Source: Polyangiaceae bacterium (lineage in GTDB: Bacteria > Myxococcota_A > Polyangia > Polyangiales > Polyangiaceae). Taken from it: a stretch of 64,000 nucleotides of DNA. The notes under the pieces were generated by a model. It made no database searches. It was not told the origin of the DNA and saw only the letters and a list, made by a program, of their open reading frames with translations. Both the position numbers and the translations under genes were made by a program. Positions 55,258 to 63,461 of the stretch are shown one piece after another; position 1 is the stretch's first letter, and every line of letters starts with the position of its first letter. Where the stretch lies: NCBI GenBank assembly GCA_020846005.1, contig JADLEQ010000085.1, positions 124,001 through 188,000 on the forward strand, given 5' to 3'.

Positions 55258-56445
55258 GTGCGCGAGTCCGAGGTGCGTGACGAGATCGCCGTGCTGGCGA
55301 ACGAGGCGATCGGTCGCTTCGGGGTCGCCGGCGCGGTCACGCTCGAGGCCGACCGCGCGGTGCTCTCGGGGCCGGGCGGCGCGGTGGCCTTGCCGCTCGG
55401 ATCGCTGGTCGAGCAGTGGCGGGAGCTGCCCTTCGACGAGCGCCGGCGGCGCGTGAACGAGCTGGCGCGGGGGCTCGTCGCGGCGCGCCGCGGGTCGCTC
55501 GCGCCTGCGCCGGGGGGCGGGGGGAGCGCCTCGGGTGGGCTGCGGCTGCTCGGTGCGCTGGGCCTCGCCACGGCGGTCGCCGCGGTGGCCTGGTACCTCC
55601 GGTCGGCCCGTGACGCCGACGAGGCGCGCAGCGCGCCCGCCGTCGACGCGGTCGCCCAGCTGGCCGAGATCGAGCGCGAGCGCTCCGAGCGCGCGGCGCG
55701 GGTCTGCGAGGCGACGCGCGCGCGCTTCCTGCGAGGGGGCACGCCGACTCCGCTCGACGTGGAGGGGTGGGTCGTCGAGCTGAGCGGGCTCGGCGCGCCC
55801 GGCGTCGCGTCGGCGACCGCGCTGGCCGAGCTGGTGGGCGGCAGCGGGCGGGTCGCGTGGGCTGGCGCCCCGGACCTGGCGGCCGTGGACGGCCCCGACA
55901 CGGCCGTGACCGTAGCGGACAGCAGCGTCACCGGCGCCGACGCCGGCGCGACCGGCGGCGTCACCTTGCGCTTCTCCGGGGCCTACGTGAAGGCCTACTT
56001 CGACGAGGCGACGCGCCCGGCCTTCTTCCCGTTCGCCGCCGCGGCGGTCGAGCGGCTGCGTCTCGCCTCGGCTGCGCTCTATGCCCGGTGCGCCCACGGG
56101 GGGGGATACTCGACCGGCGCTTGGTTTGCCGGGGAAGACCTCGGTGCCGTGGCCACCAGCGTGGTGTTCGTCATGGGGACGAACGCCGACGTACCGCAGC
56201 TCCGAGATGCCTTCGCGGTGAAGGACGGCGGGCTCGACCGGGCGGGCCTGCTCCAGGAGATCCGCGCGAGGGCCGCCCGGCTCGAGCGCCGCCAGGTGCT
56301 GGCGGCGCTGTCGCCCAACGGCGGGATGCTCCAGGGGCGGAGCGACGGCGCGCACACGATCACCTTCCCGTTCCGCGACGCGCACCGGGCGACGCGCGCG
56401 AGCCGCGCGCTGGCGGTCGTGGCGGGGCTGGCCGTCGAGTACTGA
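55258..56445 (+). CDS. Single-pass membrane protein of unknown function
   Basis: 395 residues from a GTG; TACGCT lies 8 bases upstream, suggesting a leaderless start divergent from surE. The cytoplasmic part (1-85) contains VRDEIAVLANEAIGRFG and a helix VEQWRELPFDERRRRVNELARGL. One transmembrane helix lies near 97-115 (LGALGLATAVAAVAWYL). The C-terminal domain (about 125-395) has no recognised motif. Its 3' end overlaps the convergent EpmA-like gene by 86 bases. Confidence 0.7.
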   Translation: MRESEVRDEIAVLANEAIGRFGVAGAVTLEADRAVLSGPGGAVALPLGSLVEQWRELPFDERRRRVNELARGLVAARRGSLAPAPGGGGSASGGLRLLGALGLATAVAAVAWYLRSARDADEARSAPAVDAVAQLAEIERERSERAARVCEATRARFLRGGTPTPLDVEGWVVELSGLGAPGVASATALAELVGGSGRVAWAGAPDLAAVDGPDTAVTVADSSVTGADAGATGGVTLRFSGAYVKAYFDEATRPAFFPFAAAAVERLRLASAALYARCAHGGGYSTGAWFAGEDLGAVATSVVFVMGTNADVPQLRDAFAVKDGGLDRAGLLQEIRARAARLERRQVLAALSPNGGMLQGRSDGAHTITFPFRDAHRATRASRALAVVAGLAVEY

Positions 56446-57658
56446 CGGCCGGGGGCCCCGGCACGGCCGCCACCGCCTCCACCCGCTCGGCGCCGGCGGT
56501 GAGCAGGACCAGCCGGTCCACGCCGAGCGCGTTGCCGCCGCTCGGCGGCATGCCCTCGCCGAGCGCGCGGAGGAACGCGTCGTCCAGCGGGTAGACGCGG
56601 CGCCCGGTCCGGCGTCGGGCGGCGCGCTCCGCGACGAACCGGGCGCGCTGCTCCACGGCGTCGGTGAGCTCGCCGTAGCCGTTGCAGAGCTCGACGCCGG
56701 CCAGGTAGAGCTCGAAGCGCTCGGCGACCCGACCGTCGGCCGGGCTGCGGCGGGCGAGCGCCGCCTGGGTCGCCGGGTACTCCACGACGAAGACCGGTCG
56801 CTCGAGCCTCGCGAGCGCCGGCTCGACCTCCGCCACCCACCGCGCGAAGAACTCGTCCTCGTTCGTCTCGGCGAGCGTGACGGCGTCGGCCACCCCGGCG
56901 AAGCGGCGAAACGCTTCGCGCACCGTCACGCGCTCGAACGGAGCGCGCAGGTGGACCCGACGCCCGGCGCGCTCGACCGAGCTCCGCCCGGCGACCGTCG
57001 ACACGACGTGGCGGACGAGCGCCTCGGTGTCGTCGATCACCGCGCTCATCCCGGAGAACGCCCGGTACCACTCGAGGAGCGTGAACTCCGGGAGGTGCAG
57101 GGGGCCGGCCTCGTCGAGCCGGGTGACGCGCGCGAGCTGGAAGACGCGCGGCATCCCGCCGACGAGGAGGCGCTTCAGCGAGAGCTCGGGGGAGGTGATG
57201 AGGTAGCCGCCCTCGGCGCGCAGGGCGTCCACGTGCGCGTCGACGCCCGGTGTGCGGACGCGGAGCGGCGTCTCCACCTCCACGAACCCGCGGGGCGCGA
57301 ACCAACCCCGGATCGCCGCGAGCGCCTGGGCCCGGGCGACGAGGCGCGGCCCCACGCCGGCCCAGGAGAGGCGCGCGTGCTCGCCGTCTCCGCGCGGCGC
57401 CGGGTACGGGTAACGAGCCACGAGCCGCGCCCGCTCGACGACGCTCCCCCCGGTGAGCCGCCCGCTCACCACGACGAGCTCGCCGGCCGCGAGGGGCGTC
57501 GCCCGCTCGAAGCGCACCCGGCATGTCGCGAGCGCGTCGGCGAGGACCCACTCGCGGCCGGCGCCCGCCGCGATCCGCCCTCCGACCCGGACCGATCGCC
57601 CGGCGTGCGCGGGCGCCAGATCGCTCGGCGAGGCGACGGACCCGCGCGCGGAGATCAC
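56360..57658 (-). CDS. epmA: EpmA/GenX-like class II lysyl-tRNA-synthetase paralogue with an extra N-terminal domain
   Basis: 432 residues from a GTG that overlaps the fliQ-like stop. The class II core has motif 1 GFVEVETP, motif 2 FTLLEWYRA and motif 3 GGNALGVDRLVLL, with LCNGYGELTDAVEQRARF in between. The size and sequence fit EF-P beta-lysylation ligase rather than LysS. Residues about 15-95 (SVRVGGRIAAGAGREWVLADALATC, ELVVVSGRLTGGSV) look like a small OB-type beta-barrel that typical EpmA lacks. EF-P and EpmB genes are not in the window. The C-terminal 35 residues are a Pro/Arg tail. Confidence 0.82.
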   Translation of the reverse strand: MISARGSVASPSDLAPAHAGRSVRVGGRIAAGAGREWVLADALATCRVRFERATPLAAGELVVVSGRLTGGSVVERARLVARYPYPAPRGDGEHARLSWAGVGPRLVARAQALAAIRGWFAPRGFVEVETPLRVRTPGVDAHVDALRAEGGYLITSPELSLKRLLVGGMPRVFQLARVTRLDEAGPLHLPEFTLLEWYRAFSGMSAVIDDTEALVRHVVSTVAGRSSVERAGRRVHLRAPFERVTVREAFRRFAGVADAVTLAETNEDEFFARWVAEVEPALARLERPVFVVEYPATQAALARRSPADGRVAERFELYLAGVELCNGYGELTDAVEQRARFVAERAARRRTGRRVYPLDDAFLRALGEGMPPSGGNALGVDRLVLLTAGAERVEAVAAVPGPPAVSTRRPAPPRPPARGSRASPGARRGTGR

Positions 57659-57915
57659 CCGCCGACGAACGCCCGCTCCGCGAGCAGCGCGATCTCGCGG
57701 CCCATCCACGGCCCGGCGATGGCCAGCGCGATGGCGACGACGACCAGGCGGGGGAGGTGCGCGAGCGTCGAGTCCTGGATCTGGGTCGCGGCCTGGAGGA
57801 CGGCGACGGCGAGCCCGACGACGGCCGCGACACCGACGACGGGCAGGGACACCGCGACGGCCAAGAGCAGCGCCTCCTGCGCCAGCCCGACGAGCCCGGC
57901 GACGGTCTCCGGCAC
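57655..57915 (-). CDS. fliQ: FliQ/SctS family type III export-apparatus subunit (orphan)
   Basis: 86 residues from a GTG, the full length of the family (85-90). Two transmembrane helices, AVAVSLPVVGVAAVVGLAV and LVVVAIALAIAGPWMG, flank the invariant loop LQAATQIQDSTLAHLPRL. FliQ/SctS forms part of the helical export gate with FliP and FliR. None of the other export genes is in the window. It starts 2 bases after a repeat lipoprotein and overlaps the EpmA-like gene by 4 bases. Confidence 0.92.
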   Translation of the reverse strand: MPETVAGLVGLAQEALLLAVAVSLPVVGVAAVVGLAVAVLQAATQIQDSTLAHLPRLVVVAIALAIAGPWMGREIALLAERAFVGG

Positions 57916-57917
57916 GC

Positions 57918-58589
57918 TCAGTCTCCCGGCGAGTCCGTTGGGGCGTCGCCCGCCGAGGCATCGCCCGGAGCGCCACCGCTCGACGAGCCGGCCGCCCCCG
58001 CGGCCCCCGCCGCGCCGCTGGTGCCGGACGCGCCGCTCGCGCCGCTGGCGCCGGACGCGCCGCTGGTGCCGGACGCGCCGCTGGTGCCGGCCGCGCCGCT
58101 GGTGCCGCTCGCGCCGCTGGTGCCGCTCGCGCCGCTGGTGCCGCTGGCGCCGCTGGTGCCGGACGCGCCGCTGGTGCCGCTCGCGCCGCTGGCGCCGCCC
58201 GCGCCGCCGGCGTCCGTCCCGCCCGCGCCGCCGGCGTCCGTCCCGCCCGCGCCGCCGGCGTCCGCCCCGCCCGTGCCGCCCGCGCCTGCCGTCGGGTTCA
58301 CCCCGCCGCCCGCGCCGAACGAGGCGTCCACCGCCGGCGAGGGCCGCCCGCCCGCCGTGGCGGAGCGGCAGGCGCTCACCGAGGGGGTCTCCGGCGGCCG
58401 GGGGCAGCACACGTCGCGCCCCGCGCGGACGCTGGAGCCGGCGACGCAGACGAACCCCTCGTCGCAGTCGAGGCTACCCCGATCCCGGTTGCACGGCTCG
58501 CCCTCGCCGTCCTCGCCGCACGCGCCCGCCGCCAGGGCCCCGGCGGCACAGAGGATCGCGGCCCAGATCCGAGACCTCGTTCGCGGCAT
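57918..58589 (-). CDS. Cys-rich lipoprotein with SGASGT-type low-complexity tail
   Basis: 223 residues. Lipobox AGAC (Cys near 24). A short Cys-rich domain follows (CNRDRGSLDCDEGFVC, CCPRPPE). About 130 residues of Gly/Ala/Thr/Ser repeats (SGASGTSGASGT, GAGGTDAGGAGG) then run to the end. It is related in plan to the next lipoprotein, so the pair probably arose by duplication. It likely extends from the outer membrane as a flexible stalk. Its ATG overlaps the previous stop by one base. Confidence 0.75.
   Translation of the reverse strand: MPRTRSRIWAAILCAAGALAAGACGEDGEGEPCNRDRGSLDCDEGFVCVAGSSVRAGRDVCCPRPPETPSVSACRSATAGGRPSPAVDASFGAGGGVNPTAGAGGTGGADAGGAGGTDAGGAGGTDAGGAGGASGASGTSGASGTSGASGTSGASGTSGASGTSGAAGTSGASGTSGASGASGASGASGTSGAAGAAGAAGSSSGGAPGDASAGDAPTDSPGD
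58011..58272. repeat. Degenerate 9/18-bp and 24-bp coding repeats
   Basis: From 58011 to about 58200, imperfect copies of GCGCCGCTGGTGCCG recur in 9- or 18-base steps. From 58201, a 24-bp unit beginning GCGCCGCCGGCGTCCGTC repeats at 58201, 58225 and 58249. They encode the Gly/Ala/Ser/Thr tail of the lipoprotein read on the minus strand. Confidence 0.85.
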
Positions 58590-59149
58590 CACCCCGTACC
58601 CCCTTCCGCTCCTGCCACGCAGGAGCCGGTCGCGCTGCACACCAGGGGCGGCGTGCAGTCCTCGCTCGTCACGCACTCGGGCTGGCAGACGCCGCCGGGC
58701 CCGCACACGAGGTCACCCGGACACTCGCTGGTGTAGCGGCAGGCGCTCGCGTCGGTCGCCGCGCCGCCGGAGCCGCTCGCGCCGGAGGAGCCGCTCGCGC
58801 CGGAGGAGCCGCTCGCGCCGGAGGAGCCGCTCGCGCCGGAGGAGCCGCTCGCGCCGGAGGAGCCGCTCGCGCCGGAGGAGCCGCCCCCGCCGTCGCCGGA
58901 GGTCCCGCCCGTGCCCCCGACCTTGAGCGCGCACTCGCCCGAGCCGCCGCCCGGCGGGCAGCAGCGATCGATGGAGTCGTCGAGCAGCTCCGCGGCGGCG
59001 ATGCACACGAACTCCGAGTCGCAGTCTTGATTGCCGTTGCGGTCGCGATCGCAGCGATCACCCTCGCCCTGCTTGCCGCAGCCGGGGGCCAGCGCGATGG
59101 CGAGCCAGGTGAGGGCGACGGCCGCGCTCAGGACAGGGGACGTCTTCAT
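58589..59149 (-). CDS. Cys-rich lipoprotein with SGASGS spacer between two Cys modules
   Basis: 186 residues. Lipobox APGC (Cys near 24). A Cys module (CDRDRNGNQDCDSEFVC, then CCPPGG and CALKV) is followed by an exact SGASGS repeat tract. A second Cys module closes the protein (CRYTSECPGDLVCGPGGVC, CVTSEDCTPPLVC). TACATG lies 8 bases before the ATG. This is the first gene of an operon leading into the second lipoprotein, fliQ and epmA. Confidence 0.77.
   Translation of the reverse strand: MKTSPVLSAAVALTWLAIALAPGCGKQGEGDRCDRDRNGNQDCDSEFVCIAAAELLDDSIDRCCPPGGGSGECALKVGGTGGTSGDGGGGSSGASGSSGASGSSGASGSSGASGSSGASGSSGASGSGGAATDASACRYTSECPGDLVCGPGGVCQPECVTSEDCTPPLVCSATGSCVAGAEGGTG
58771..58878. repeat. 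Six perfect 18-bp tandem repeats inside a lipoprotein gene
   Basis: AGCCGCTCGCGCCGGAGG is repeated exactly at 58771, 58789, 58807, 58825, 58843 and 58861. The array is in frame and encodes the SGASGS spacer, so copy-number change would alter spacer length without a frameshift. Confidence 0.97.
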
Positions 59150-59190: not shown

Positions 59191-59913
59191 TCAGCCGCGG
59201 ATCCGGCGCTCCTTCGCCTCGACGGCCTCGGCGAACAGGCCGACGTACGAGGCCGCGCTCGTCAGGGAGAAGAACAGCGAGAAGTACACCAGCCAGCGGC
59301 CGACCACGACCAGATCCACCACGCCGAGGTCCAGGAAGCCCAGGGAGAGGTGGTACGGGAACCCCACGATCAGGCACAGGATCCCGACCAGCTGGAGCGC
59401 GGTCTTCTGCTTGCCCCCCTCGCCGGCCGCGATCACCACGCCCTCGCTGCTCGCGATCGACCGGAGCGCCGTGATCGTGATCTCGCGCGCGAGGAGCAGG
59501 ACGACCGCCCACTCGGCGATGCGTCCCATCGGGACCATCCAGACCAGACACGCCATGACCAGCAGCTTGTCCGCCAGCGGGTCGAGGAACTTGCCGAGCA
59601 CGCTCACGACGTCGAGGCGACGCGCCAGCCAGCCGTCGAGGAGGTCCGTGATGGCGGCGGCCGCGTAGACGAGCGCGGCGATGGCGCACGAGCGGGGCGT
59701 CCCCACGTCGAGCAGCCAGAGCACGAGGGGGATGACGAGGATCCGGGCGAACGTGAGGAGGTTCGGGACGTTCAGCGCGTCGTCGCGGAGCGAGCGGCGG
59801 CGCGCGTGCGCCTCCGGGCTCCCGCGCAGGGGTCGTCCGCCGGGCGCCTCGGCGCCGCGGGGGGGCGCCGAGGCCTCGGGCGGCGGGGGGGTGGGCGGTC
59901 GGGACGTCGCCAT
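59191..59913 (-). CDS. pgsA: CDP-diacylglycerol-glycerol-3-phosphate 3-phosphatidyltransferase
   Basis: 240 residues. The CDP-alcohol phosphotransferase motif is DGWLARRLDVVSVLGKFLDP followed by LADK (Asp-Gly-x2-Ala-Arg-x8-Gly-x3-Asp-x3-Asp). NVPNLLTFARILVIPLV opens the membrane core. It makes phosphatidylglycerophosphate, the precursor of phosphatidylglycerol and cardiolipin. The first 50 residues are a Pro/Arg-rich extension. The ATG is supported by TAGCCT 8 bases upstream. Confidence 0.95.
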   Translation of the reverse strand: MATSRPPTPPPPEASAPPRGAEAPGGRPLRGSPEAHARRRSLRDDALNVPNLLTFARILVIPLVLWLLDVGTPRSCAIAALVYAAAAITDLLDGWLARRLDVVSVLGKFLDPLADKLLVMACLVWMVPMGRIAEWAVVLLLAREITITALRSIASSEGVVIAAGEGGKQKTALQLVGILCLIVGFPYHLSLGFLDLGVVDLVVVGRWLVYFSLFFSLTSAASYVGLFAEAVEAKERRIRG

Positions 59914-59924
59914 CGGGGCGCAGG

Positions 59925-61436
59925 CTAGCGCGGCGGCCCGGCGGGCGGGGAGCCGAGGACCAGCAGCGCGCCGTCCCCGCTGAAGGCCAGGAAACCGCGC
60001 GTGCCGAGCGGGGCCTCCTCGGGCGAGGCGGCCCGCGGGACGAGCCGGCCCATCCACCCGAGCACGTCGGCCCCGCGCGCGAGCAGCGGGCGCTCGGCCG
60101 TCGTTCGGAGCGAGCGGACGGGGCGCTCATGCTCCACGACGACGGCCCCGCGCCCCGAGAGCTGCACCACGGCGACGTGGTCGCCCTCGCCGTCGGGGAC
60201 GCGCCCGTGCTCGTGGCGCAGCCGGCCGTCGAAGGCCAGCAGCGCGGACTCCCGGACGTAGAGGAAGTCGTCCGTCAGCTCGACGACCGTCGGGTCGCAC
60301 CCGGGCCGCGCCCCGAGCAGCACGTGGCCGAGGCCCTCGAGCTGGACGAACGGTGCGTGTGCCCCGCCGAGCGGCTCTGCGGTCTCGCGCCCTCGCGCCC
60401 GGCGGAGGAGCTGCGTCGCCACGAACGCCGGCCCCGCGGGCACGAGCGCGCGGAGCGCCGCCTGCCGGAGCCCGCACACCTCGACGACCGCGAGCGCGAC
60501 CAGGCCGTCCCCGAGCGCACGGGCGGCTCCGAACGTCGGCAGCTGGAGTGGCGCCGGGTGCGCGGGGCGGCCCGATCCCGAAGCTGGCGGCTGGACGGAC
60601 CGCGCGCCCGGAGGCTGCGCCGGGGCCGGCGCGGGCTGGGGAGGCGGCATCGACTCGGGCAGCGGTGGGATGACCGGGCCGAGGCGGCCGCCTCCCGCCG
60701 CGCCTCGCGACGGAGGCGGCGCGAGCCCGTCGCCGCCGGGCTCGCGCGTGAGCCAGCGCCCGGCGCGCGACGGCGCGCCCTCGCTGGCGGCGGCGGCCCG
60801 TGAGAAGGGCTGCGCGTCATCGCTGGCCGTCAGCTCCGCGGCTGCCTCGGCCGCGGCGCGGCGCACCTCGGCCGCCTCGGGGGCGGGCTCCGCGGGCTCG
60901 GCCGGGACCCGCTGGTCGAGCAGGAGCTGCATCCTGCGCGCCATCTGGGGCTGCCCCGCCCGCTCGAACGCCGCGAGCGCCTTCGCCGGCTCGCCGAGCC
61001 GCTCGTACACCAGCCCGAGATAGCCCCACGCGCGCTGGTGCCCGGGGACGCGCTCCAGCACCTCCAGCAGGGCGTCGCGCGACTGCGTGGTCTGGCCCGT
61101 CTTCAGGTAGCTGAGCGCGAGGTTTACCCGGGGGGTGATCTCCGCCGGGCGCGCGCGGATGATCTCCTCGTAGATCGTGATGGCGCGCGGGTAGAGCCCC
61201 AGCCGAAAGTAGACGACCCCGAGGAGCCCCTGGCCCTCCACGTCTCGCGGCTGCAGCGAGAGCGCGCGCTCCAGCTCCTCCTTGGCCTCGCCCACGCAGT
61301 CGTCCTGCAGGAGCTCGCTGCCGCGGTACAGGTGGTACAGGAACTCCTCGCCGTCGAACGACGACGGCGGCGGCGAGGAGTCCGGGGCCGACTCGGCCGG
61401 CCCGCGCTGCGCCGTCGGCTCCTCCGTGCTCGCCAT
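59925..61436 (-). CDS. TPR protein with C-terminal AIM24-like domain
   Basis: 503 residues. The N-terminal third has three or four TPRs (EEFLYHLYRGSELLQDDCVGEAKEELERAL, GLLGVVYFRLGLYPRAITIYEEII, VNLALSYLKTGQTTQSRDALLEVL, WGYLGLVYERLGEPAKALAAFERAG). A Pro/Ala linker (about 185-290) follows. The C terminus matches AIM24: FVQLEGLGHVLLGA, VELTDDFLYVRESALLAFDG, VAVVQLSGRGAVVVE. The AIM24 fold is a double-stranded beta-helix of unclear function. It follows hisA in the same direction after 17 bases. Confidence 0.82.
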   Translation of the reverse strand: MASTEEPTAQRGPAESAPDSSPPPSSFDGEEFLYHLYRGSELLQDDCVGEAKEELERALSLQPRDVEGQGLLGVVYFRLGLYPRAITIYEEIIRARPAEITPRVNLALSYLKTGQTTQSRDALLEVLERVPGHQRAWGYLGLVYERLGEPAKALAAFERAGQPQMARRMQLLLDQRVPAEPAEPAPEAAEVRRAAAEAAAELTASDDAQPFSRAAAASEGAPSRAGRWLTREPGGDGLAPPPSRGAAGGGRLGPVIPPLPESMPPPQPAPAPAQPPGARSVQPPASGSGRPAHPAPLQLPTFGAARALGDGLVALAVVEVCGLRQAALRALVPAGPAFVATQLLRRARGRETAEPLGGAHAPFVQLEGLGHVLLGARPGCDPTVVELTDDFLYVRESALLAFDGRLRHEHGRVPDGEGDHVAVVQLSGRGAVVVEHERPVRSLRTTAERPLLARGADVLGWMGRLVPRAASPEEAPLGTRGFLAFSGDGALLVLGSPPAGPPR

Positions 61437-61453: not shown

Positions 61454-62188
61454 TCAGACGCTCACGGGCGCGTCGCCGCGCGCGGCCGCCAGCGCGGCGT
61501 CCAGCGTGAACCGGCCCTCGTGGAGGGCGCGCCCCACGATCGCTCCCGCGATCTCGCGGTGCCGAGCGAGCCGCGCCACGTGCTCGATCGAGCCCACGCC
61601 CCCGCTCGCGATGACCGGGATCGAGGTGGAGCGGGCGAGGCGAACCGTGGCGTCGACGTTCGGCCCCTGCTCCATGCCGTCGCGCGCGATGTCGGTGTAG
61701 AGCACCCCCGCGAGCGGGAGCGCCGCGAGCTCGGCGAGGAGCTCCGTCGCGAGCGTCGCGGACTGCTCGAGCCAGCCCCGGGTCGCGACCCGGCCGTCGC
61801 GCGCGTCGAGCGCGACGACCACTCGCCCGGGGTGCGCCGCGGACAACTGCTCCACCATCTCGCGATCCTCGAGCGCCGCCGTGCCGAGCACCACCCGGTC
61901 GGCGCCGAGCTCGAGGTACGCCTCGGCCGCGACCCGGGTGCGGACCCCGCCCCCCACCTGCACCCCGCGCCCGAACGCCTCCACGACGCGGCGGACCAGC
62001 GCGCGCTGGACCGGGAAGCCCTCGCGGGCGCCCTCCAGATCGACCACGTGGAGGTGCCCCGCACGGCCACGCCACCCGGCCGCGAGCTCCACCGGGTCGA
62101 TGGAGTAGCGCGTCACGTCCTCGTAGCTGCCCTGGCGGAGGCGGACGGCGCTGCCGCCCAGGAGGTCGATGGCAGGGTAAAGATCCAT
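61454..62188 (-). CDS. hisA: HisA, ProFAR isomerase
   Basis: 244 residues forming one TIM barrel. Catalytic Asp8 is in YPAIDLLGG and the second Asp is in YTDIARDGM. Phosphate sites are VQVGGGVR, VVLGTAAL and VIASGGVGS. It isomerises ProFAR to PRFAR in histidine synthesis. It follows hisH after 14 bases. The partner hisF is not in the window. Confidence 0.97.
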   Translation of the reverse strand: MDLYPAIDLLGGSAVRLRQGSYEDVTRYSIDPVELAAGWRGRAGHLHVVDLEGAREGFPVQRALVRRVVEAFGRGVQVGGGVRTRVAAEAYLELGADRVVLGTAALEDREMVEQLSAAHPGRVVVALDARDGRVATRGWLEQSATLATELLAELAALPLAGVLYTDIARDGMEQGPNVDATVRLARSTSIPVIASGGVGSIEHVARLARHREIAGAIVGRALHEGRFTLDAALAAARGDAPVSV

Positions 62189-62202
62189 GGGGACCGGGGA
62201 GA

Positions 62203-62871
62203 CTACTCGGCGGCGCCGTCGCGGAGGAAGGCGGAGAGGAGGGCGAGCCCGGCGTCCTGGCTCTTCTCGGGGTGGAACTGGCTGGCGAAGACCGCCCCGC
62301 TCGCCACCGCGGCCGTCACCACGCTCGCGCCGTGGGTCACCGTCGCGCGGACGACCTCGGGCCGAGAGGGCACCGCGTGGAACGAATGAACGAAGTACAG
62401 CCACGCGCGTTCTCCGCCGGCCGCCTCGAGGAGCGGATGGCCCCCTGCGGCGAGGCGGAGCTGGTTCCACCCCATGTGCGGGATCTTGACGCCGGGCTCC
62501 GGGTGGAGCCGGACGACCGTCCCCGCGAGCCAGCCCAGCCCCCGCGCCTCGGGCGCCTCCTCGCTCGACTCGAAGAGCGCCTGCAGGCCGAGGCAAATCC
62601 CGAGGTACGGCACGCCGCGCTCGAGCGCGCCGAGGAGCGCGGCGCGCAGCTCCAGCCGATCGAGGGCGGCCGCGAAGTCGCGGAACGCGCCCTGCCCCGG
62701 GACGACGACGCGATCGGCACGCGCGAGGGCCGCTGGGTCGGCGGTGCGCTCGATCCGCGCGACGACCCCGGCGCGCTCCGCCGCGGCCGCGAGCGCGCGC
62801 TCGACGCTCCGGACGTTCCCGATCCGGGTGTCGACGAGCGCGACCTCGAGCGCCGCGGAGGGCGTCGTCAT
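62203..62871 (-). CDS. hisH: HisH, imidazole glycerol phosphate synthase glutaminase subunit
   Basis: 222 residues. The nucleophile Cys93 is in GICLGLQALF; the triad is completed by His200 and Glu202 in FHPEKS. VPGQGAF and HMGWNQL are family motifs. It feeds ammonia to HisF. Its ATG overlaps the hisB stop by 4 bases. Confidence 0.97.
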   Translation of the reverse strand: MTTPSAALEVALVDTRIGNVRSVERALAAAAERAGVVARIERTADPAALARADRVVVPGQGAFRDFAAALDRLELRAALLGALERGVPYLGICLGLQALFESSEEAPEARGLGWLAGTVVRLHPEPGVKIPHMGWNQLRLAAGGHPLLEAAGGERAWLYFVHSFHAVPSRPEVVRATVTHGASVVTAAVASGAVFASQFHPEKSQDAGLALLSAFLRDGAAE

Positions 62872-63461
62872 CCGTCCAGGCTGCCCTTCGTCGACGGGAT
62901 CCCGGCGGCCCGAGGATCGATCTCGACGGCTCGTCGGAGCGCGCGGGCGAAGGCCTTGAAGCATGCCTCGACGATGTGGTGGAGGTTCGTCCCCTCGTGG
63001 AGCCGGACGTGGAGGTTGGCGCCGCACGTCCGCGCAAACGCCTCGAAGAAGACCTCGGCGAGCTCGGTGTCCCAGGCGCCGAGCTTCGCCTTGGGCAGCG
63101 CGACTCGCCACACGAAGAAGGGCCGCCCCGAGAGATCGAGCGCGACGCTGGCCAGCGTCTCGTCCATCGGTTGAGTGGCCTCGCCGAACCGGCGGATCCC
63201 CGCCCGCTCGCCGAGCGCGTCGCGCACGGCGCGGCCAAGGACCATCCCGAGATCCTCGGTCGTGTGGTGGCCGTCCACGTCCACGTCGCCGGCGGCGCGG
63301 ACGCTGAGATCGAGGCACCCGTGGCGCGCGATCTGCTCGAGCATGTGGGAGAGGAAGGGGAGGGGCGTCGCGATGCTCGCCTGGCCGCTGCCGTCCAGAT
63401 CGAGCTCCACGGTGATCTCCGTCTCTCGGGTCTTGCGCTCCACCTTCGCGGTGCGGGTCAT
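62868..63461 (-). CDS. hisB: Imidazoleglycerol-phosphate dehydratase
   Basis: 197 residues, the single-domain dehydratase without the phosphatase half. Manganese-binding His motifs are HHTTEDLGMVLG and HHIVEACFKAFARALR; FLSHMLEQIARHG opens the first half. It converts IGP to imidazole acetol phosphate. Its start overlaps the upstream gene by 4 bases, forming an upstream-gene-hisB-hisH-hisA run. Confidence 0.97.
   Translation of the reverse strand: MTRTAKVERKTRETEITVELDLDGSGQASIATPLPFLSHMLEQIARHGCLDLSVRAAGDVDVDGHHTTEDLGMVLGRAVRDALGERAGIRRFGEATQPMDETLASVALDLSGRPFFVWRVALPKAKLGAWDTELAEVFFEAFARTCGANLHVRLHEGTNLHHIVEACFKAFARALRRAVEIDPRAAGIPSTKGSLDG

Follow-up and report, generated by a model that had tools for sequence, protein, structure and literature searches.

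A Lone fliQ-Type Gene of Polyangiaceae as the Likely sctS of a Dispersed Non-flagellar Type III Export Apparatus

Type III secretion systems (T3SSs) nearly always occur as gene clusters. The 64,000-nucleotide stretch of DNA analyzed here (the window), from a soil myxobacterium of the Polyangiaceae, carries a single fliQ-type gene, placed between two lipoprotein genes and the gene of an EpmA-like ligase. With which partners does its product work? The original prediction was undecided between a dispersed export apparatus and a membrane protein derived from FliQ with another use. The window belongs to contig C85 of a 5.7-Mb genome assembled in 119 contigs and 99% complete.

The sctS Locus and Its Neighbors

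The four genes predicted to lie head to tail are present on the minus strand, from 59149 to 56360, with the expected spacing: the lipoprotein genes overlap by 1 bp, a 2-bp gap separates the second from the fliQ-type gene (sctS, see below), and the latter overlaps the ligase gene by 4 bp. Rather than the four-gene operon that had been proposed, they form the tail of a longer minus-strand run, hisB-hisH-hisA-TPR protein-pgsA-lipoprotein 1-lipoprotein 2-sctS-epmA, with gaps of about 10–40 bp. Promoter and terminator scans of the sctS operon found nothing. The features are as follows:

61454..63461, minus strand, hisA-hisH-hisB, start of the co-directional run in the window (annotated by eye)
59925..61436, minus strand, TPR-containing protein of the same run (annotated by eye)
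59191..59913, minus strand, pgsA-type CDP-alcohol phosphatidyltransferase, conserved upstream neighbor (annotated by eye from the sequence)
58589..59149, minus strand, Cys-rich lipoprotein 1, 186 aa, SGASGS repeats, motif CGKQGEGDRC...C (Pfam matches sub-threshold only)
57918..58589, minus strand, Cys-rich lipoprotein 2, 223 aa, SGASGT repeats, lipobox AGAC, motif CGEDGEGEPC...C (no Pfam domain)
57655..57915, minus strand, sctS (fliQ-type) export-gate subunit, 86 aa, the window's member of the scattered set described below (Pfam, NCBIfam, and PDB relatives)
56360..57658, minus strand, EpmA/GenX-type EF-P lysine ligase, 432 aa (NCBIfam TIGR00462 above cutoff)

The fliQ-type product matches Pfam PF01313 (Bac_export_3) with 84.8 bits for a cutoff of 25, and its assignment to the FliQ family is far above chance. 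NCBIfam refines this predicted FliQ/SctS identity to SctS: the protein scores 81.5 bits with the SctS equivalog TIGR01403, above the cutoff of 76.5, and 74.3 bits with the FliQ model TIGR01402, below the cutoff of 88.9. Its PDB relatives are FliQ and SpaQ. The window gene is of non-flagellar type and is not decayed.

Gene order around sctS was compared among 40 named Polyangiaceae-type sctS loci retrieved by a genome scan with a narrow FliQ alignment. Across Polyangiaceae we found a conserved order, pgsA, GEGERC-type lipoprotein, sctS, (TetR), epmA. At 32 of the 37 testable loci, the gene directly upstream of sctS encodes a lipoprotein with the motif C..(Q)GEG.RC...C. Since 1-kb control windows contain this motif in only 28 of 725 cases, the association is not due to chance. 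Of the 32 named loci with enough sequence, 28 have pgsA upstream; 33 of 34 named loci have an EpmA-type gene downstream, and in 18 named loci a TetR-type gene separates it from sctS. Beyond this family the surroundings differ: one other family (f8) retains the lipoprotein at sctS without epmA, and in three other families sctS is immediately followed by sctT. This last arrangement ties the SctS studied here to a SctT.

The conserved lipoprotein-sctS-epmA order could be taken to mean that SctS is a FliQ-derived membrane protein whose local system also includes the lipoprotein and the ligase. This reading, the second of the predicted options, is disfavored and in our view extremely improbable, given the locus of family f8, the pairing of sctS with sctT in other families, and a distribution of sctS that tracks the other sct genes (see below). 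We regard the GEGERC-type lipoprotein and the EpmA ligase as long-standing operon neighbors, at most coexpressed with sctS; their linkage is no proof of a role in secretion.

Relatives normally encode a single lipoprotein at the sctS locus, and both window copies carry the motif. The pair is therefore probably a local tandem duplicate with expanded repeats, the SGASGS and SGASGT stretches of both proteins being encoded by 18-bp tandem arrays. A third lipoprotein-like protein with long SGASGS/GGASGS repeats (L019 16896-18998, minus strand) is encoded on C85, about 9 kb past the window end and about 14 kb from the sctS operon. Such linkers recur in this genome, and with a third repeat lipoprotein at this distance the repeats are not special to the sctS operon. 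The ligase had been predicted as EpmA-like, and it passes the EpmA/GenX equivalog TIGR00462 with 293.5 bits for a cutoff of 286.9; its aminoacylation activity is a prediction. About 100 extra N-terminal residues precede its catalytic domain (the model match starts at residue 107). This extension may be a reduced OB-fold of the kind present in LysRS.

A Flagellar Set and a Scattered Set

By homology search, the source genome encodes two homologs each of FliQ, FliP, FliR, FlhB, and FlhA, and also second copies for SctJ/FliF and FliI/SctN. One set is flagellar and clustered on C70, where a FliQ of its own is found with flgB, flgC, fliE, fliF, fliG, fliI, fliN, flhF, and a fliA-like gene (names assigned by eye, except for the FliQ, FliP, FliR, FlhB, FlhA, FliF, and FliI homologs found by search). 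The other set is scattered:

C85:181655-181915 (57655-57915 of the window), sctS
C91:74387-75524, fliO-sctR
C105:12831-13577, sctT
C105:24868-25884, sctU
C11:4599-6569, sctV
C113, sctJ, a short lipoprotein of 270 aa with lipobox VSAC
C16, sctN, the second FliI/YscN-class ATPase

Each scattered gene stands alone among housekeeping genes, the nearest pair being sctT and sctU, about 11 kb apart. The window gene is thus an orphan, as first described, only locally: non-flagellar homologs of FliP, FliR, FlhA, and FlhB (sctR, sctT, sctV, and sctU), together with sctJ and sctN, lie at other loci. It had also been considered that a full flagellar locus might possess its own FliQ and the window copy be decayed. 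The flagellar locus exists, on C70, but the window copy is of a different, non-flagellar type and shows no decay. No flagellar rod, ring, or hook gene lies beside any scattered sct gene, and neither sctQ, sctL, sctD, sctI, nor genes for a needle or a secretin were recognized beside them. In the 0.8 Mb read of one flagellum-free relative we found no SctQ, SctL, SctD, or SctC and no FliN/FliM or FliH-like match.

For every scattered Sct protein, the Sct model of NCBIfam outscores the flagellar one, and the reverse is true of the C70 FlhA; FliO, for which there is no Sct counterpart model, stands outside this comparison. The margin is wide for SctJ (118 bits with the SctJ model vs. 30 for FliF) and narrow for SctN (best model SctN, 559 bits, vs. 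543–546 for the FliI models). NCBIfam T3SS cutoffs are passed only by SctS (equivalog) and SctR (subfamily, just under equivalog); SctU, SctV, SctJ, and SctN fall under the equivalog cutoffs, and SctT is weak (62 bits with Pfam, under the NCBIfam cutoff). For these other members, the typing therefore relies on how their scores compare, on the SctV tree, and on the genes they occur with. In this tree, built with a quick method with SH-aLRT support only and without Cystobacterineae "Myxo" sequences, flagellar and non-flagellar proteins are split with a support of 99. The scattered SctV of Polyangiales form one group (88) that lies with rhizobial SctV among the non-flagellar proteins, apart from the FlhA of Myxococcota flagella.

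A full flagellar locus in the genome and a FliO homolog adjoining sctR might suggest that the scattered set, as a spare or paralog of the flagellar export apparatus, helps to build the flagellum. FliO, however, also occurs in non-flagellar T3SSs of Myxococcota (PMC12403147). Given the NCBIfam scores, the position of SctV in the tree, and the carriage of the set by genomes without a flagellum (20 of 35, see below), we rejected this reading, which is largely refuted and retains very little probability; four flagellated genomes lacking the scattered set also contradict it.

Three other scattered genes also have recurrent neighbors. Directly upstream of sctJ, a gene (L120 8159-10504, C113) encodes a kinase-like protein with a membrane segment, so annotated by eye and without a Pfam match. 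A kinase-like gene occupies this position in eight of nine genomes, and the protein is a candidate for a partner of the scattered system. A FIST-domain protein gene (L018 6582-7724, C11) precedes sctV by 12 bp, an adjacency retained in four Polyangiaceae genomes. In seven of nine genomes, dnaJ adjoins sctN in either orientation (L182, L187, L192, L177, L196, L206, and L211).

Distribution and Maintenance of the Scattered Genes

By homology, we surveyed 58 further genomes, almost all belonging to the order of the source genome. Six genes were scored, sctS, sctV, sctR, sctU, sctJ, and sctN, the scattered type being called from identity, E-value, and contig. The seventh, sctT, was located only in the source genome and, adjoining sctS, in other families. 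Among the 45 good-quality genomes counted, source genome included, 26 carry all six genes, 9 carry four or five, 10 carry none, and not one carries one to three. Pairwise Fisher tests among the six genes give p values of 1e-4 to 1e-9, uncorrected for kinship. Across the order, the six genes are thus present or absent as a block. A flagellum is encoded in 15 of the 35 set-positive genomes and missing from the other 20.

In the local DNA of nine genomes, every core gene examined stood at a separate locus. Fragmentation of metagenome-assembled genomes affects most of the genomes but not the two assembled as single contigs. In one of these, of 12.2 Mb, sctR lies at 1.07, sctS at 1.75, sctU at 4.24, sctV at 4.50, sctJ at 4.76, and sctN at 8.14 Mb; in the other, of 10.3 Mb, the smallest distance, 51 kb, is that between sctS and sctV. 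In several further Myxococcota families, we found a non-flagellar sctV with no recognized T3SS gene within the 12–20 kb read (loci L280, L281, L283, L292, L294-L296, L298, and L299). Scattering may be phylum-wide in Myxococcota.

Such a layout, with no outer parts recognized beside the genes, is what decaying relics of a formerly clustered T3SS could leave, and the NPTH self-cleavage motif of SctU is indeed lost in at least one genome (G021). This motif is nevertheless kept in 25 of 30 SctU, and Walker A in all 15 SctN. The scattered genes are full-length open frames in nearly all genomes, and between two congeners sctV shows a dN of 0.09 and a dS of 0.59 (dN/dS about 0.15). From the retention of both motifs and this ratio, the set looks maintained. 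Since the all-or-none distribution also does not fit piecemeal loss, decay is disfavored and appears highly unlikely.

We conclude that the window gene is very likely the sctS of a non-flagellar type III export apparatus whose core looks complete and whose genes are dispersed over the chromosome. This is the first of the two predicted options, and it agrees with the non-flagellar sctR, sctT, sctU, sctV, sctJ, and sctN found elsewhere, all but sctT sharing the distribution of sctS. In T3SSs, the gate consists of SctRST and is completed by SctU and SctV, with SctJ as the inner ring and SctN as the ATPase. By homology, SctS would join SctR and SctT in an R5S4T1 inner-membrane gate, which SctU and the SctV ring would complete; the lipoprotein SctJ would constitute the inner ring, and SctN would power export or unfold substrates. 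Proteins would thereby be exported across the inner membrane. Taking the needleless T3SS* of Myxococcus as a model, one may suspect that the output serves predation or some other contact function.

Comparison with Known Systems and Implications

Abby and Rocha (2012) described a secretin-less "Myxo" T3SS, clustered and found only in Cystobacterineae (PMC3459982). The scattered set resembles in content the "Myxo" T3SS of Myxococcus and Anaeromyxobacter; with the short variant it shares SctRSTUV, SctN, and SctJ (no secretin being reported), the phylum, and long retention. The "Myxo" loci are, however, clustered with a conserved order, whereas the scattered set consists of single-gene loci, as read in nine genomes, and its hosts are Polyangiales. 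The needleless T3SS* of Myxococcus xanthus (MXAN_2434-2464) is likewise a non-flagellar, inner-membrane system that lacks needle and secretin and belongs to a predatory myxobacterium, and its cluster is required for prey lysis (PMC12075869, PMC10433427). It differs in forming one large cluster that also encodes SctD, SctI, SctQ, SctL, and chaperones.

Scattered T3SSs were reported mainly in Chlamydiales (PMC3459982). There, a functional non-flagellar T3SS is spread over several loci, at least four, of which three carry core genes, and includes a secretin; in the Polyangiaceae set, nearly every core gene occupies a separate locus. The flagellar export apparatus of C70 shares homologous FliPQR-FlhB-FlhA, FliI, and FliO with the scattered set, but lies in a cluster that also holds genes for rod, hook, MS ring, and regulators, and belongs to a separate FlhA/SctV clade.

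In previous surveys, multiple sctV and sctR copies were noted in Myxococcia and Polyangia (PMC11509652), and a considerable fraction of the T3SS genes of M. xanthus was found only in Myxococcaceae bins (PMC11821767, PMC10469934). Our literature search, with subscription papers mostly outside its reach and priority therefore uncertain, did not find a fully dispersed T3SS set described in Polyangia. Standard T3SS detection tools require clustering, a secretin, or both, and because of this a conserved T3SS spread singly would be missed. In the TXSScan T3SS model, the secretin is among the mandatory components and components are clustered by default (PMC4793230).

Reports of "Myxo" systems restricted to Cystobacterineae would need revising, as would reports that Polyangiaceae hold few such secretion genes. 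We also considered a broader scenario, in which a secretin-less T3SS with a single gene per locus would be ancestral in Myxococcota and widespread there (Polyangia, Bradymonadia-like, and other lineages), older than the clustered "Myxo" loci, and a surviving early form of non-flagellar T3SS, exporting proteins across the inner membrane only. We consider this scenario rather unlikely. The scattered set would be useful for dating the origin of non-flagellar T3SSs. With many natural cases of such a T3SS with or without flagella, it raises the question of the role of an export apparatus without a known needle.
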